DNA from: Sphingopyxis fribergensis
GTDB taxonomy: Bacteria; Pseudomonadota; Alphaproteobacteria; Sphingomonadales; Sphingomonadaceae
Direction of reading: 5' to 3'
DNA length: 64,000 bases
Assembly (NCBI RefSeq): GCF_000803645.1
Contig: NZ_CP009122.1
Span: 3,324,501 to 3,388,500, forward strand
Part shown: one piece after another, positions 4,172 to 57,159 of the stretch
Numbering within the stretch: position 1 is the first letter of the stretch
How the letters are laid out: each line of letters begins with the position of its first letter
Made by a program: the position numbers and the translations under genes
Notes under the pieces: generated by a model
The model's input: the letters and a program-made list of their open reading frames with translations, nothing else
The model's database searches: none
What the model was told of the DNA's origin: nothing

Positions 4172-5284
<1,113 letters not shown>

Positions 5285-6350: not shown

Positions 6351-8450
6351 TCAGAACTTCCCGCGCACCGAAAAGGAAAAGATCGGCCCGATCAGCCGGT
6401 CGCGTTCCTCGATGAAGCTGACCGGGCTTTCGCCGCGAACCCCGGTATAGGCCGTCCGGTCGCGCCTCGATCGCGCATTGGCGATGTTGCGGATCGACGC
6501 CCGGACAGTCAGGCCCAGCACATCCTTATGCTCGACGAAAACCGACGCCCACACCGGGCCTTCCCATACTCTGTCGGTCTGGTTGCGGCGATAACTCGGC
6601 TGATAGTGCGAATATTCGACATCGCCGCCCCACGCCCAGTCGCTCGCCGGGATGTCGTGGCGCAGGCCGAGGCTGATCACCGTGTCAGTAAAGCCGTTCC
6701 ACTGCCTTTTCTCGCCGGTGAAGGGATCGCGCAGCGAACTTTTCTGTAGCAACATCCGGGGCTCGAGCTTCATTCCCTTGATCCCCGCGGGGTCGAGGTT
6801 GATCGTCGCCGTCCAGTCGATCGCGCCCGCCTTCGCCTTCGCGATATTGCCCACCGCCTCGCCATCGGTGCCGATCGGAATCACATCGACGCGGTCCTCG
6901 ACGTCGCGATAGATGAGGATGAGCTTGGTCGAGCCCCACGCGCCGAACTTCTTGTTGATCTCGGCCTCATACGACCAATCCTGCTGGGGCCTGAGATCGT
7001 TGTTGCTCTCATTCTGGTTGCCGTCGTTCAGGAAAGCCCGCGCCAGGAAGTCATAGAAGGACAATTGCAGCACGCGCCGCCGCATCTTTACCGACACGTC
7101 GAAATCGGCGGTTGGCGTCCAGGCGAGCGAGATCGACCCCTTGGGCCGGAAAAAGCTGCGCGTCAGGCCGTTCATGCCGGTCTGGGTGATCGTCGAATGT
7201 TCGGCGCCCGCGACAATCTGGAAATTCAGCTTGTCGGTCAGCTTGCGCCCGAAGCTCAGGAGACCTTCATAGCGGTCCTCGCTCACCCCGCCGGTGCCGC
7301 CCTCGAACGGCTGGTCTACCCATGCTCCCGTTGGATCAAGCACCGCGATCGACGCTACATTGTCGAGCGTGTTGAACGCCGCCTCACCTGACAATTGCCA
7401 GTCGCCGCCGAACATCTTCCACTGATATTCGCCGCGCCCGATCGTCTCGCCAAGGTCGCCGGTCTGAGCAAAACGGTCGCCCGTCGCGACGCCGCCGTCG
7501 GGGGTCGTGATGATCTCCTGCCGGTACGGCTCGTGGCTGAACCGGCGGAGCCCGATCAGCTTCAGCTTTCCCGGTCCGACGCCGAATTGATAATCGCCGC
7601 TGAACTCATAATTCCAGCTGTCGGCATTTTCATATACCGTGCGGATGCTGTCGGGCAGGCCCGGTCCGGTGCGCAGGCCATCCTCATAATAGCGGTCATA
7701 TTTGCGCTGATAATGGCCGCCGAGATTGGCGACGGTGTCGCCCGCCGGATCCCACATAATTCGCCCCGACAGCTTCGGCGTGTCATAATGCGTGTTCCAG
7801 ATGTCCTTGCGCCGCTCGGTGATGTTGCGCGCGCCGTCATAGAGGAGCGTCGGCCCACCCGCGCCGCTGCGCGCCGAATCGTCGTTATTCAGCGCGACCT
7901 CATATTCGACCGCCCCGCTGCGGCCGCGCACCGACACGTCGGCGCGGGTGAACAGGGGATCGGTGTAATGGGCGCGAAATTCGGGCTTCCACGAAAACTG
8001 CCCCGAAAAGGCATCGGCGCGATAGACGACATTGGCGACCTGTCCCGACAGTCCCGGAATATCGAGCGTCGCGCCGTCGACGACCTCGATCCGTTCGACA
8101 TTGCCTGCGGGAATGCGCGACAATTGAGTGTACATGTCGTCGCCCTTGTTCGACGGCCGTTCGCCATTGAACAGGACATTGCCCGTCGCCTGCCCCAGCC
8201 CGCGCAAATTCTCGTTGTCGCGGATCTGGAAACTCGGAACCTGGATCAGCATGTCATAGGCGTTGTTGGGCGAATAGCGCGCGAAGTCGGCGGGCGTATA
8301 GACCTGCCGCGCTGCGCTGCTGATCCCGCCCGCCGGTACTTCGGTTGGTGCCGGAGGTGGGGTATCGCCGTTCGGCGCCGCGGCCTCCTGCGCCAGCGCG
8401 GGGGTGGCCAGCGCGGCCGCAACCGCTATCAGACTGCTCCAACGCTTCAC
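6351..8450 (-). CDS. TonB-dependent receptor-like outer membrane protein
   Basis: 699 residues with a signal peptide (MKRWSSLIAV, cleavage after ALAQ) and a plug-like domain (residues about 50-150: LIQVPSFQIRDNENLRGL, VLFNGERPSNKGDDM, VERIEVVDG), then a long beta-barrel rich in aromatic-ended strands and finishing in Phe (SFSVRGKF). It should take up or sense a ligand at the outer membrane. No TonB box was identified with confidence. Start is GTG at 8450, overlapping the stop of the preceding secreted repeat protein by four bases (GTGA), so it is the last gene of the BlaI/BlaR-like operon. Substrate unknown. Confidence 0.85.
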   Translation of the reverse strand: MKRWSSLIAVAAALATPALAQEAAAPNGDTPPPAPTEVPAGGISSAARQVYTPADFARYSPNNAYDMLIQVPSFQIRDNENLRGLGQATGNVLFNGERPSNKGDDMYTQLSRIPAGNVERIEVVDGATLDIPGLSGQVANVVYRADAFSGQFSWKPEFRAHYTDPLFTRADVSVRGRSGAVEYEVALNNDDSARSGAGGPTLLYDGARNITERRKDIWNTHYDTPKLSGRIMWDPAGDTVANLGGHYQRKYDRYYEDGLRTGPGLPDSIRTVYENADSWNYEFSGDYQFGVGPGKLKLIGLRRFSHEPYRQEIITTPDGGVATGDRFAQTGDLGETIGRGEYQWKMFGGDWQLSGEAAFNTLDNVASIAVLDPTGAWVDQPFEGGTGGVSEDRYEGLLSFGRKLTDKLNFQIVAGAEHSTITQTGMNGLTRSFFRPKGSISLAWTPTADFDVSVKMRRRVLQLSFYDFLARAFLNDGNQNESNNDLRPQQDWSYEAEINKKFGAWGSTKLILIYRDVEDRVDVIPIGTDGEAVGNIAKAKAGAIDWTATINLDPAGIKGMKLEPRMLLQKSSLRDPFTGEKRQWNGFTDTVISLGLRHDIPASDWAWGGDVEYSHYQPSYRRNQTDRVWEGPVWASVFVEHKDVLGLTVRASIRNIANARSRRDRTAYTGVRGESPVSFIEERDRLIGPIFSFSVRGKF

Positions 8451-9193
8451 TTGGAAACTCCCCCCGCGGCACGGTTCATCGCCTGCGCATATTCGCCCGT
8501 CACACCCATCGCCTTCATCCCGACGACCTCATCTGCGCTAAGCCTCCTGTATCCCGCCGCGGCAAGCCCGCGCACATAGGCGCCATCGACGCCAAGCGCC
8601 TTGCACGCGATCGCATCCTCGACGTCGGCAAGGACCAGTGCTTCGGACCGGAGGTCGCGAATATATTCGGGCCGCACCTCAAGTGCCGCAGCGGCGATTA
8701 GGTCGTCGGCGTCCTTCGGTCGCACCCCTTCGCGCGTCAGCCCGTCGGCCAGCTCAATTGTCGCATCGACGAGGAGCATCGCGAGCAGCGTCGAACGTCG
8801 ATCCGGCGCTAGACCGCGGTCACCCAGCGCGCCCTCGAACGCGGGGTCGGAGGTGAAGCGGCATTCGCCTTTCCCGTCGAACGCGCGCGTCAGCGTGCCG
8901 GTGCACGCCAGCGTCCCCGCATCATGCGTCACGACAAAGCTGACCGGCCCCGGCGTCGTCCGGCCGAGCGCAGCCTCGGCGGCGGCGAAATAGGGGCGCG
9001 AGCCGTCGAACGTCTGATCACTGCTCGACTTTTTGTGCTGGATGCGGACGCGCGGCGCACCCCTCTTTCCGCCCGCCGGTTCGGCAACCCAGCTGACGTC
9101 GCTCAACACGAGCGGATCAGCAGCGGCGCTCGGCGCCGAACAGGCGAGGATCGACAGCAGCGCGGCGCCGCCGGTAAGATACAGGGCTTTCAT
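8447..9193 (-). CDS. Secreted protein with C-terminal GVTxEY-type repeats
   Basis: 248 residues. The ATG at 9193 is preceded by GGAGGGAGGAG and opens a signal peptide (MKALYLTGGAALL, cleavage near SAAA). Residues about 25-150 form an unrecognised periplasmic domain. The C-terminal 85 residues contain three copies of a module of about 27 residues, best seen in MKAMGVTGEYAQAM, CKALGVDGAYVRGL and AALEVRPEYIRDL. The same module occurs in the C-terminal part of the upstream BlaR1-like protease. That sharing and the operon position suggest a common ligand or direct contact. I do not recognise a family name. Confidence 0.72.
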   Translation of the reverse strand: MKALYLTGGAALLSILACSAPSAAADPLVLSDVSWVAEPAGGKRGAPRVRIQHKKSSSDQTFDGSRPYFAAAEAALGRTTPGPVSFVVTHDAGTLACTGTLTRAFDGKGECRFTSDPAFEGALGDRGLAPDRRSTLLAMLLVDATIELADGLTREGVRPKDADDLIAAAALEVRPEYIRDLRSEALVLADVEDAIACKALGVDGAYVRGLAAAGYRRLSADEVVGMKAMGVTGEYAQAMNRAAGGVSK

Positions 9194-9306
9194 TTGGTGC
9201 ACTCCTCCCTCCGTGCGCCGGGCGAGCGCCATCGCTCGCCGCCGCAACGGCGTTTCCAAACAGGGTTTCGATTAAGCGTCCGCAGCTGCGGACGAATGGC
9301 CGGGCG

Positions 9307-11031
9307 TCAGTCGCGGACGGGCGGCTCCGGCGGTTCGGGTTTCACGGGGAATGCAATCTGGGCGGTCCGGCCGTCGGCGGCCCGCGCCTCGATAACGCCA
9401 CGTTCCATATCGACCACCGCGACATTCTCGCCGCGCACCGCTTTCGTGGCCGAACGGGGCGCCCTCGCAGGCCGCGGTTTCGTCGCCCCGACCCACCCCG
9501 TTGCGCGCAGTTCGATAGCATCGTCGGCGCGGCGCATCTTCACCCCCGACCGTTGCATGTCGGTGACGAAATCGCAGTCGACCCCCATCGCCTTCAGCGC
9601 GATCAGGTCGTCGATGCCGACGTCGGGGAAATGCGATTTCATGTCGCGGGCGAAGGCGGCATTGACGCCGACATGACGTGCGCCGACCAGTTCGTCGAAA
9701 TCGGCGCCGGGAATGACGTCGCGCATCTGCCGGATATAGGCCGGGTCGATCCCGCTCGCCTTCGCCGAGATGATCTCGTCGGCATCGAGCGAGCCGCCAT
9801 GCTCGCGCATCTGGGCGACATATTCGGGGGTCACACCGACCGCGCGCATGCTCACCAGCTGTTCGGCGCTGAGCGTCTTCGACGTCGCTGCTGCGCGGCC
9901 CGTATCATCGGTCTGGGTTGCCTTTGCAGCTGCGGCGGACTGCGATGTCACGGTCGTCGTCTTCCTGATCGTCGAGGCGACGGCGGAGTGGACGTCCGCC
10001 GTCAGTGCGGGCTTAGCGGTCGCCGAGAAGGCAGCGAGCGGCACGGTGATACCCGCGAGCACCACCAGGCTCATCAGGATCCAGCTCGCGCTCGCCGGAC
10101 CGCGCCTCAGGCTGCCGTCGAGGACGCGTGTGATCCGGCGCTTCAAACTGTCCTTGCCCGGCGCGACGCCATGCGCGGCGAGCAGCGCGCCCTGATTGTC
10201 GTGCCGCGCCGCGCCGACCAGCAGGGTTGCATAGTCGGGACCGTCGATGTCGGCCATCAGCACCGCGTCATCGGCGGCTTCCTCGCGCAATTGGTGGCTC
10301 TCGCGCGCCAGCATCCACACCAGCGGATTGAACCAGAAGACCGCACAGGCGACACGCGCGCCGAGCAGCTTCGCCCAGTCGAGCCGCGCGACATGCGCCA
10401 GTTCGTGCGCGATGATCGCCTCGGCCTCACCCGACGCCGCCACGGCTTTCGGGCTCAGCACGATCGTCGGACGCAGCACGCCCCAGCTGATCGGCGAGCG
10501 CAATTCGTTGCTGACCAGCAGCGCGGTGCCATGCTTGAACCCCATCCGCCGCTGCGCCTCGGCGAGCGCCGACAGCCACGATCGCTCGACCAATATTTCG
10601 GCGCGCCCGCGCATCGCGAACAACCGCACCACCGCGACCGCCATCACTCCAGATAACAGCAGGAGCGGGGCAAGATAGAGAAAGGGTGCAAGGTCGCTCC
10701 ACGAAAAGACGATCGGCGTCGATCCGGCACTTTCCACCACGACAGGGACTGACGTCGCAGCGGGTGCCGGATCGATCGCCGACCCCCCCGTTGTTGCCGT
10801 TTGCACGATCGGCACGGCGGGTTCGAAGGACCAGGCCGCGGGCAGCGGCGCCCATTGCGGCAGCAGCAATATAGCGGCCGGCAGCGCGAGCAGCGCCATC
10901 AGGCCCGCATGCGCGATCATCGACCGCTCGCCGGCCGAACGCCAGCGCGCGAGGCGCAGCAGGCCGAGCGTCAGCGCGGCGACAATGACGGATTTCCAGG
11001 CAAGGCCCAGCAACATGGCGGCGGTCAACAT
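9307..11031 (-). CDS. BlaR1-like M56 membrane metallopeptidase with repeat-type sensor domain
   Basis: 574 residues. Membrane segments lie near the N terminus and around residues 110-135, then the zinc-peptidase motif HELAH (about residue 205) in AIIAHELAHVARLDW, and another membrane segment near 330. Canonical BlaR1/MecR1 ends in a penicillin-binding sensor; here no SxxK penicillin-binding fold is seen. Instead residues about 400-530 carry four or five modules of about 27 residues (MRAVGVTPEYVAQM, AKASGIDPAYIRQM, ALKAMGVDCDFVTDM). Family knowledge predicts that sensing triggers cleavage of the BlaI-type repressor. ATG 11031 overlaps the repressor stop by one base; GTG 11034 is the alternative. 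Confidence 0.85.
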   Translation of the reverse strand: MLTAAMLLGLAWKSVIVAALTLGLLRLARWRSAGERSMIAHAGLMALLALPAAILLLPQWAPLPAAWSFEPAVPIVQTATTGGSAIDPAPAATSVPVVVESAGSTPIVFSWSDLAPFLYLAPLLLLSGVMAVAVVRLFAMRGRAEILVERSWLSALAEAQRRMGFKHGTALLVSNELRSPISWGVLRPTIVLSPKAVAASGEAEAIIAHELAHVARLDWAKLLGARVACAVFWFNPLVWMLARESHQLREEAADDAVLMADIDGPDYATLLVGAARHDNQGALLAAHGVAPGKDSLKRRITRVLDGSLRRGPASASWILMSLVVLAGITVPLAAFSATAKPALTADVHSAVASTIRKTTTVTSQSAAAAKATQTDDTGRAAATSKTLSAEQLVSMRAVGVTPEYVAQMREHGGSLDADEIISAKASGIDPAYIRQMRDVIPGADFDELVGARHVGVNAAFARDMKSHFPDVGIDDLIALKAMGVDCDFVTDMQRSGVKMRRADDAIELRATGWVGATKPRPARAPRSATKAVRGENVAVVDMERGVIEARAADGRTAQIAFPVKPEPPEPPVRD

Positions 11032-11405
11032 CACGCTTTCCCTTCGCGCGCTTTAGCGATCATCTGTTCAAGTTCGTCGAGTTCGCTATTGCTCATCTCG
11101 TCCTGCATCCCGAGCAGCGCCGCGGCAGCACTCGTCGCCGATCCGTTGAAGAAGACGCGCACGACCTGTGACAGCGCGGACTTGCGCGCGGTCTTGTCGG
11201 ACACGCTCGGCGCATAGACGAAACCGCGGTCGGACTGTTCGCGGGCGACGAAGCCTTTGGTCTCCAGCCGCTTGAGCATCGCGCGGATCGCGGAACCCGA
11301 CAGCTCGTCGGCCAAGGCTTCGCCAATCTCGATGACGGTCGACGCCCCGCGCTCGTATAGGATATCGACGATTTCGCGTTCCCGCGGCGGCAAACTGGAC
11401 AACAT
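11031..11405 (-). CDS. BlaI/MecI/CopY-family repressor
   Basis: 124-residue winged-helix repressor: LPPREREIVDILYERGASTVIEIGEAL, then AIRAMLKRLETKGFVAREQ (recognition helix and wing) and a C-terminal dimer helix with DELEQMIAKA. Proteins of this family bind TACA/TGTA-type palindromes and are inactivated by the partner M56 protease. The ATG at 11405 has GAGGTGA five bases upstream; GTG 11414 is possible but less well placed. The gene is first in the operon and two matching operators lie just upstream, so autoregulation is expected. Confidence 0.92.
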   Translation of the reverse strand: MLSSLPPREREIVDILYERGASTVIEIGEALADELSGSAIRAMLKRLETKGFVAREQSDRGFVYAPSVSDKTARKSALSQVVRVFFNGSATSAAAALLGMQDEMSNSELDELEQMIAKAREGKA

Positions 11406-11421
11406 GCGACTCACCTCATGC

Positions 11422-11451
11422 GCTACATTTGTAGCGTGCTACATTTGTAGC
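11422..11451. promoter_or_regulatory. Two tandem BlaI-type operators
   Basis: GCTACATTTGTAGC occurs at 11422-11435 and identically at 11438-11451, each a perfect dyad apart from its two-base centre and carrying TACA/TGTA as in BlaI/MecI boxes. The centres are 16 bases apart. On the minus strand TTGCCA (11464-11459) could be the -35 element, which would put the operators over the -10 region and leader of the repressor gene. Binding is inferred, not shown. Confidence 0.88.
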
Positions 11452-56741: not shown

Positions 56742-57159
56742 AGCTCCATGTGGAGGCACCGCGGCGAGGGTGCAACCCCGCCGGGGATTTCCGACGCGAC
56801 CGCGCCAAGGGTCGCCATCGCCTTTGTCTGAGTTGACGCCGCCTTTGTTGCGGACGCCCAAACTCTAGCGCCTGGTCGTGGCGCGATCATAATGATATCG
56901 CCAGGACCGGGATGCTCATCGAGGTTCGGCAAAAATCCAAATGGCCTATTTGAGAATGATCGCGTCCAGACGAAAAATTACGATAAGGCGGCACTGGATG
57001 GGCTTGCGCTGCACTTCAGCATCAGGATAGAGGGCCTTTATTCGCAAGGACCCGGTGTAACTCCGGGTGGCTATTCCGGCCGCCTATCCGCCGGACAACA
57101 TCGCACATGCAAATCAAGTTTGTCCGCCCGGGCACCATGTGTCTTGATGTGAGCTTTTC
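56742..57159. other. Intergenic leader region upstream of SulP gene
   Basis: 418 bases between divergent ClC and SulP genes, no gene supported. A hairpin CCCGG-TGTAACT-CCGGG at about 57050-57067 is followed by GGTGGCTATTCCGGCC, about 90 bases before the SulP start, so a structured 5' leader is possible. A small region rich in A and T at 56925-56990 may hold the promoter. Confidence 0.45.

Follow-up and report, generated by a model that had tools for sequence, protein, structure and literature searches.

This report concerns a four-gene operon in Sphingopyxis fribergensis, found within 64,000 nucleotides of contig NZ_CP009122.1 (positions 3,324,501 to 3,388,500; this whole stretch is referred to as the window and supplies all window coordinates). 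The operon encodes a BlaI-type repressor, an M56 family membrane metalloprotease (M56), a secreted repeat protein that we call REP and a TonB-dependent receptor (TBDR). BlaR1 and MecR1 pass their signal on by proteolysis of BlaI, and proteases of the BlaR1 type are best known as beta-lactam sensors. The protease described here carries, outside its core, a repeated module of 27 residues that is found again in the secreted protein encoded by the next gene.

Results

Four genes behind tandem operators

The four genes form a single unit on the minus strand (Table 1), each lying where a preliminary description, made by a model from the letters alone, had placed it. The overlaps that it reported at two of the three junctions are real: blaI and M56 overlap by 4 bases (1 base if the next ATG is the start of M56), as do the REP and receptor genes, and a gap of 113 bases separates M56 from REP, whose start codon is backed by relatives. 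Absent from that description were the operators. Exact CTACAnnTGTAG dyads at 11423-11434 and 11439-11450 are the only two in the window, and none was seen in 100 shuffles. Among 76 loci collected with the window M56 as query, 72 hold blaI; TACAnnTGTA stands near its start in 69 of these, with two sites in 63. The repressor has both hallmarks of BlaI/MecI, a Penicillinase_R winged-helix domain and a TACA/TGTA dyad at its own promoter (a predicted site).

Table 1. Features of the operon, in window coordinates
Feature	Position	Strand	Remarks
Tandem BlaI-type operators	11423..11450	-	pair of CTACAAATGTAG dyads immediately 5′ of blaI, start-to-start distance 16 bases
blaI	11031..11414	-	BlaI/MecI-type winged-helix repressor, 127 aa; PF03965 5.6e-23, 81.9 bits (cut-off 22.6)
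M56 membrane metalloprotease	9307..11034	-	575 aa, BlaR1-like core and module ectodomain; PF05569 98.8 bits (cut-off 31)
HELAH zinc motif, M56 residues 210-214	10393..10407	-	H210, E211, H214 and E251 invariant in 52-row alignment
M56 module 1, residues 388-414	9793..9873	-	44.7 bits; predicted helices 390-398 and 403-413
M56 module 2, residues 416-442	9709..9789	-	37.7 bits, match 416-440
M56 module 3, residues 444-470	9625..9705	-	33.7 bits
M56 module 4, residues 472-498	9541..9621	-	38.6 bits, match 473-497
M56 partial module 5, residues 503-513	9496..9528	-	weak, 6.5 bits; one predicted helix 503-511
REP, secreted repeat protein	8447..9193	-	248 aa; N terminus resembles a signal peptide (by eye); has a beta domain and three C-terminal modules
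REP module 1, residues 160-186	8636..8716	-	37.0 bits
REP module 2, residues 189-215	8549..8629	-	43.0 bits
REP module 3, residues 218-244	8462..8542	-	44.8 bits
TBDR, TonB-dependent outer-membrane receptor	6351..8450	-	699 aa; PF07715 7.3e-9, 36.5 bits (cut-off 23.9)

The protease has the metalloprotease core with HEXXH...E that characterises BlaR1/MecR1, and E251 is presumed from its conservation to be the third zinc ligand. The penicillin-binding (class D beta-lactamase-like) sensor, which the preliminary description had reported missing, is indeed absent: Pfam gave no match to it in the window M56 at E 1, the penicillin-binding family was found in none of 52 M56 relatives at E 0.01, and the structural alignment to BlaR1 stops near residue 298, before the BlaR1 sensor. 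The score against the NCBIfam model blaR1_generic is 63.5 bits, below its cut-off of 400. REP matched no Pfam or NCBIfam family; its predicted model has a pLDDT of 90.1, and C96 and C110 of its beta domain are invariant (48-row alignment, numbered without the initial Met).

For the receptor, a profile built from 25 receptors matches the plug of BtuB (E 4.5e-4). The PF07715 plug is present in 24 of the 25, and a family for the outer-membrane barrel that typically follows it in TonB-dependent receptors is matched in fewer (OMP_b-brl_3 in 8/25, TonB_dep_Rec_b-barrel in 1/25); the window TBDR itself matches at the plug only. An N-terminal STN signalling domain was found in none of the 25 at E 0.001.

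The gap between M56 and REP (window 9193-9306, minus strand) contains a hairpin, GGCGAGCG-loop-CGCTCGCC, some 27 bases 5′ of the REP start. It recurs in Sphingopyxis and Erythrobacteraceae relatives (L007, L014, L026, L038, L042, L044, L046 and L050), deviates from type in L048 and L074, and has no Rfam match at that place. The hairpin may set the levels of REP and receptor relative to the protease.

The module repeat

A general module profile was seeded by the seven window repeats and grown on relatives to 426 distinct modules, and a distant profile was made from 122 modules of loci L053-L072 only, chosen with the general profile. The distant profile gives 38.7, 26.7, 10.9 and 25.2 bits for the four full modules of M56 and 29.7, 34.3 and 33.4 bits for those of REP; 1000 shuffles of the two proteins yielded a best single score of 4.7 bits and at most one module per shuffle. 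Direct comparison of M56 with REP by BLASTP returned an E value of 5e-7, with 28% identity over 76 residues. Judged by these profiles, the repeat shared by M56 and REP is real and beyond chance. The preliminary description had counted three modules in REP, which hold, and four or five in M56, where four hold and the partial fifth, at 3.4 bits with the distant profile, lies inside the range of the shuffles.

Profile searches found modules across the M56 and REP proteins of relatives. In 75 M56 proteins, that of the window included, there were five matches in 57, four in 9, three in 2, six in 1 and none in 6; one of the module-free six (L049) is seemingly split over two frames, with modules in the second. 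Three to six modules are present in 69 of 70 REP proteins, the exception (L041) being cut by a contig end.

The modules and REP occur together. Among loci with at least 1 kb past the protease (L024, L041, L065 and L073, with less downstream, were excluded), REP adjoins 66 of 66 modular M56 genes by script, or 67 of 67 with the hand-assigned L079, and none of five module-free ones; this set, collected with the window M56, is biased to its relatives, and the module-free five include a short protein (L077) and a locus from another phylum (L080). At L079 (3490-8056), a single blaI is followed in order by a modular M56, REP and another M56 that has no modules; the tree pairs these two proteases (100/97), as after duplication with module loss. 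When 119 genomes of the family were sampled, six held a modular M56 (G000, the window genome, and G214, G426, G428, G488 and G507), with REP adjacent in five. A search of 246 genomes of the order led to nine further modular loci, of which four were repeats of earlier contigs; REP is present in four of the five new ones and absent in G662. These samples overlap: L238-L241 come from the contigs of L042, L027, L011 and L023, L068 is the same contig as G428:C7, and further repeats are possible. Of 63 loci with enough sequence past REP, 57 have a receptor like that of the window no more than 3 kb after it. This count was obtained with the window receptor as the sole query and so overlooks unlike receptors; in L053 and L057 a long receptor-like frame can be seen by eye about 1 kb beyond. 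Taken as sequence surveys, these results support the view that modules and REP go together, and that REP stands next to the protease as a rule outside genome G489.

A second shared domain

One locus repeats the arrangement with another fold. At L068 (G428:C7), the space between a divergently oriented receptor gene and the gene for a secreted DUF2807 protein holds a single operator, and blaI and M56 come after the DUF2807 gene. The ectodomain of this M56 is itself a DUF2807 domain, with 40.6% identity to the neighbouring secreted protein across 160 residues. Its protease core falls inside the main clade of modular proteases (support 98/99), at an unresolved fork, and the group neighbouring that clade in the tree also has modular members. 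The tree has long branches and leaves out L082, L134, L135, L236 and L138. A swap of ectodomain is the likely origin on this phylogeny, with an independent gain as a possibility. On another contig, G428 also has blaI, a modular M56 and REP. Genomes G655 and G671 have the modular operon and, elsewhere, secreted DUF2807 genes that bear the operator; these proteins would therefore be part of the regulon there, and in one lineage DUF2807 is found on the protease. That the logic of the switch is kept with DUF2807 replacing the modules argues that sharing, and not a particular fold, has been selected.

In a survey of M56 proteins elsewhere in the class, unrelated ectodomains were seen (coiled coil, TonB-C-like and others, by eye). 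The comparison of M56 ectodomains with neighbouring proteins and the protease tree cover only proteins with HExxH found by motif search, which is why the tree lacks the five loci listed above. For many loci in the comparison only about 1-1.5 kb per side was available, so neighbours may have been missed.

Other genes behind the operator

The stricter pattern CTACAAATGTAG has 60 sites in 18 of 21 Sphingopyxis genomes, as against 2 for its backward control. Of these, 32 lie at the window-type operon (16 genomes), 13 at a second blaI-M56 pair, 10 at an S41 peptidase gene and 5 at a Lumazine_bd_2 gene, a family assigned by Pfam for one of the five and by similarity to that one for the other four. 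None of the four gene families to which these 60 operators lead is a beta-lactamase. In L165 the gene just upstream of the operator-controlled Lumazine_bd_2 gene encodes a rifampin ADP-ribosyltransferase of the Arr type (tested with PF12120), and by eye the same holds for L172, L174, L179 and L180.

In the window genome, CTACAnnTGTAG sites are found at the operon (two), before the second blaI-M56 pair (one) and before the S41 peptidase gene (one, at G000:C1:3528489; PF03572, 83.8 bits). The operator of the second pair (L083, G000:C1:934494-936563) is identical in sequence to that of the window operon; its M56 has 551 residues and no modules by similarity, and neither REP nor receptor was seen alongside. 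Ten genomes of other genera hold 26 CTACAnnTGTAG sites: 15 at module-type operons, 1 at the DUF2807-type operon of G428, 1 at a second-type pair, 4 at three further secreted DUF2807 genes in G655 and G671, 2 at an S15/S9-like hydrolase, 1 at an M13 peptidase, 1 at a 213-residue protein and 1 without assignment. A variant operator also lies 5′ of an S41 gene in G223, about 3 kb past the receptor. These placements support a small predicted regulon beyond the operon, in which the same operator precedes further secreted or envelope genes.

Two observations concern other parts of the window. An MreB-like reading frame lies past the receptor gene (window 4172-5212, minus strand; by eye only), and a sul1 RNA motif (RF03058) lies at 57045-57100 on the plus strand (76.4 bits versus 36.2).

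Discussion

The Pfam matches and the module profile support what the preliminary description had proposed, a BlaI/BlaR1-like switch whose ectodomain modules are common to the product of the next gene. Its further proposal, that the repeats may sense or bind one ligand, or each other, and that the receptor may bring the ligand in, is conjectural. The regulatory frame of repressor, operator, protease and autoregulation is near certain, because of the sequence and the established biology of BlaR1-BlaI. The reading that we favour, to which we give about an even chance, holds that sphingomonads have here an autoregulated BlaI-M56 switch serving the cell envelope, with REP as co-sensor or feedback competitor. 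BlaI would hold the unit off until an envelope signal acted on the periplasmic solenoid of M56, which would then cleave BlaI, so that REP, the receptor and the other targets would be made. Since REP has the same solenoid and is itself induced in this scheme, it would most likely bind the same partner or ligand as the M56 ectodomain, acting as co-sensor or feedback competitor, whilst the receptor would import or monitor a substrate. We infer from position and recurrence that the shared domain senses, and we lean towards the domain sharing being functionally meaningful; any one particular account of it, whether a common ligand with competition or direct docking, is tentative. A speculative extension, which we consider possible though not probable, treats the periplasmic domain of the repressor-cleaving protease as a copy of a secreted protein from the same operon. 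The cell would thereby gauge how far the free copy is occupied by target or ligand, the copies competing; one fold could stand in for another (repeat solenoid or DUF2807), and a TonB-dependent receptor and secreted peptidases would be among the outputs.

Several observations weigh against the favoured reading. A modular M56 without an adjoining REP occurs in three genomes: in G223 and G662 the receptor gene comes straight after that of the modular protease, REP being absent from between them, and in G507 neither REP nor receptor follows. The association of repeat protein and receptor with the protease, to which the preliminary description had pointed, is therefore common (67/67 for REP) and not an obligatory trio. 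Conversely, G489 has two REP-like genes, and the 12 kb retrieved around either one holds no protease, so that in this genome the repeat protein stands away from the protease. No window-like receptor was seen within 3 kb after REP in 6 of the 63 loci, and two of the 57 positive cases are weak (L058, at 2.8 kb, and L054, a 148-residue piece). The DUF2807 fusion is known from one metagenome-assembled genome only, and the placing of the M56 ectodomain on its core is unsure, the predicted model having a pTM of 0.58 with a linker of low confidence between the two. As regards the regulon, the backward control gives 5 sites in the window genome versus 4 for the real CTACAnnTGTAG, and 22 versus 26 in the other genera; since the control is as frequent as the pattern in the window genome, site number alone proves nothing, and for this degenerate pattern, there and outside the genus, the evidence is position and not number. 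In the window genome no Lumazine_bd_2 target was found, and because two repressors share one operator sequence, either may control the S41 gene.

A rather doubtful alternative is that the solenoids of M56 and REP bind one another directly, REP being the input: bound to the ectodomain, REP would keep M56 off (or on) and would meet the real signal, for example the occupancy of the receptor, with its N-terminal beta domain. The same type of repeat in both proteins would suit such homotypic docking, as would the pairing seen again with DUF2807, and the separate beta domain with its two invariant cysteines offers a possible input site; the modular proteases that have no adjoining REP speak against it. 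We regard as unlikely, somewhat more so than docking, the view that the modules serve as a structural stalk in an ordinary BlaI-M56 envelope regulon, and that REP, which would have them from a past duplication or fusion, takes no part in sensing. As a stalk would allow, the targets are envelope genes of a generic kind (S41 and M13 peptidases, receptor, DUF2807), unrelated ectodomains occur on M56 proteins elsewhere in the class and REP is missing in some lineages, but a neutral stalk would not be expected to go with REP so consistently (67/67 versus 0/5), nor would the sharing be expected to recur with DUF2807. Finally, a beta-lactam sensing operon, that is BlaR1 proper with a degenerate sensor, would account for the BlaI-type repressor, the operators and the BlaR1-like core, but is highly improbable given that the 52 M56 relatives have no penicillin-binding family, that the BlaR1 alignment ends before the sensor and that the 60 operators lead to no beta-lactamase family.

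On the favoured reading of a switch with REP as co-sensor or competitor, a BlaR1-type chassis is wired here to a Gram-negative cell-envelope regulon with a defined operator, few targets and an ectodomain common to a secreted partner. The analysis points to a so far undescribed mode of envelope-state sensing, in which short helical repeats take the place of the sensing part in a switch related to the penicillin sensors. Were the competition model true, it would offer a general means of reading periplasmic occupancy. It would also open to direct testing the question of what is detected by BlaR1-like proteins that lack a penicillin sensor.

The system resembles BlaR1-BlaI and MecR1-MecI of staphylococci in that a BlaI-type repressor adjoins an M56 protease with a matching core, and in a C-terminal domain that is expected to lie outside the membrane. 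The operators are likewise of the TACA/TGTA type, the motif stated for BlaI/MecI (PMC4549145). A long loop is predicted between the second and third long helices, at residues 58-111 of the window M56, as in BlaR1, where EL1 is placed at residues 56-96 (PMC9834060). In contrast to BlaR1 and MecR1, the window M56 lacks the class D beta-lactamase-like sensor and has instead a predicted solenoid of helix-pair repeats on a linker of low confidence, and the operon adds a secreted repeat protein and a TonB-dependent receptor. Although its working appears to be like that of BlaR1-BlaI, the defining sensor feature is absent, and we therefore do not class the system as BlaR1. It also resembles the M56 proteins with other ectodomains, which combine the M56 core with a different C-terminal region and a BlaI-type repressor alongside; among the loci tested, however, an ectodomain common to a neighbouring protein was found only in the module and DUF2807 types. 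As such proteins exist, the kind is known, and the shared-domain operon with receptor is a variant that is new as far as our literature searches go.

The FecA-FecR-FecI system is a form of cell-surface signalling that uses a TonB-dependent receptor together with sigma and anti-sigma factors. Here too a TonB-dependent receptor gene is coupled to a membrane regulator, but the 25 receptors are without STN, and a repressor and an M56 protease take the place of the sigma and anti-sigma factors.
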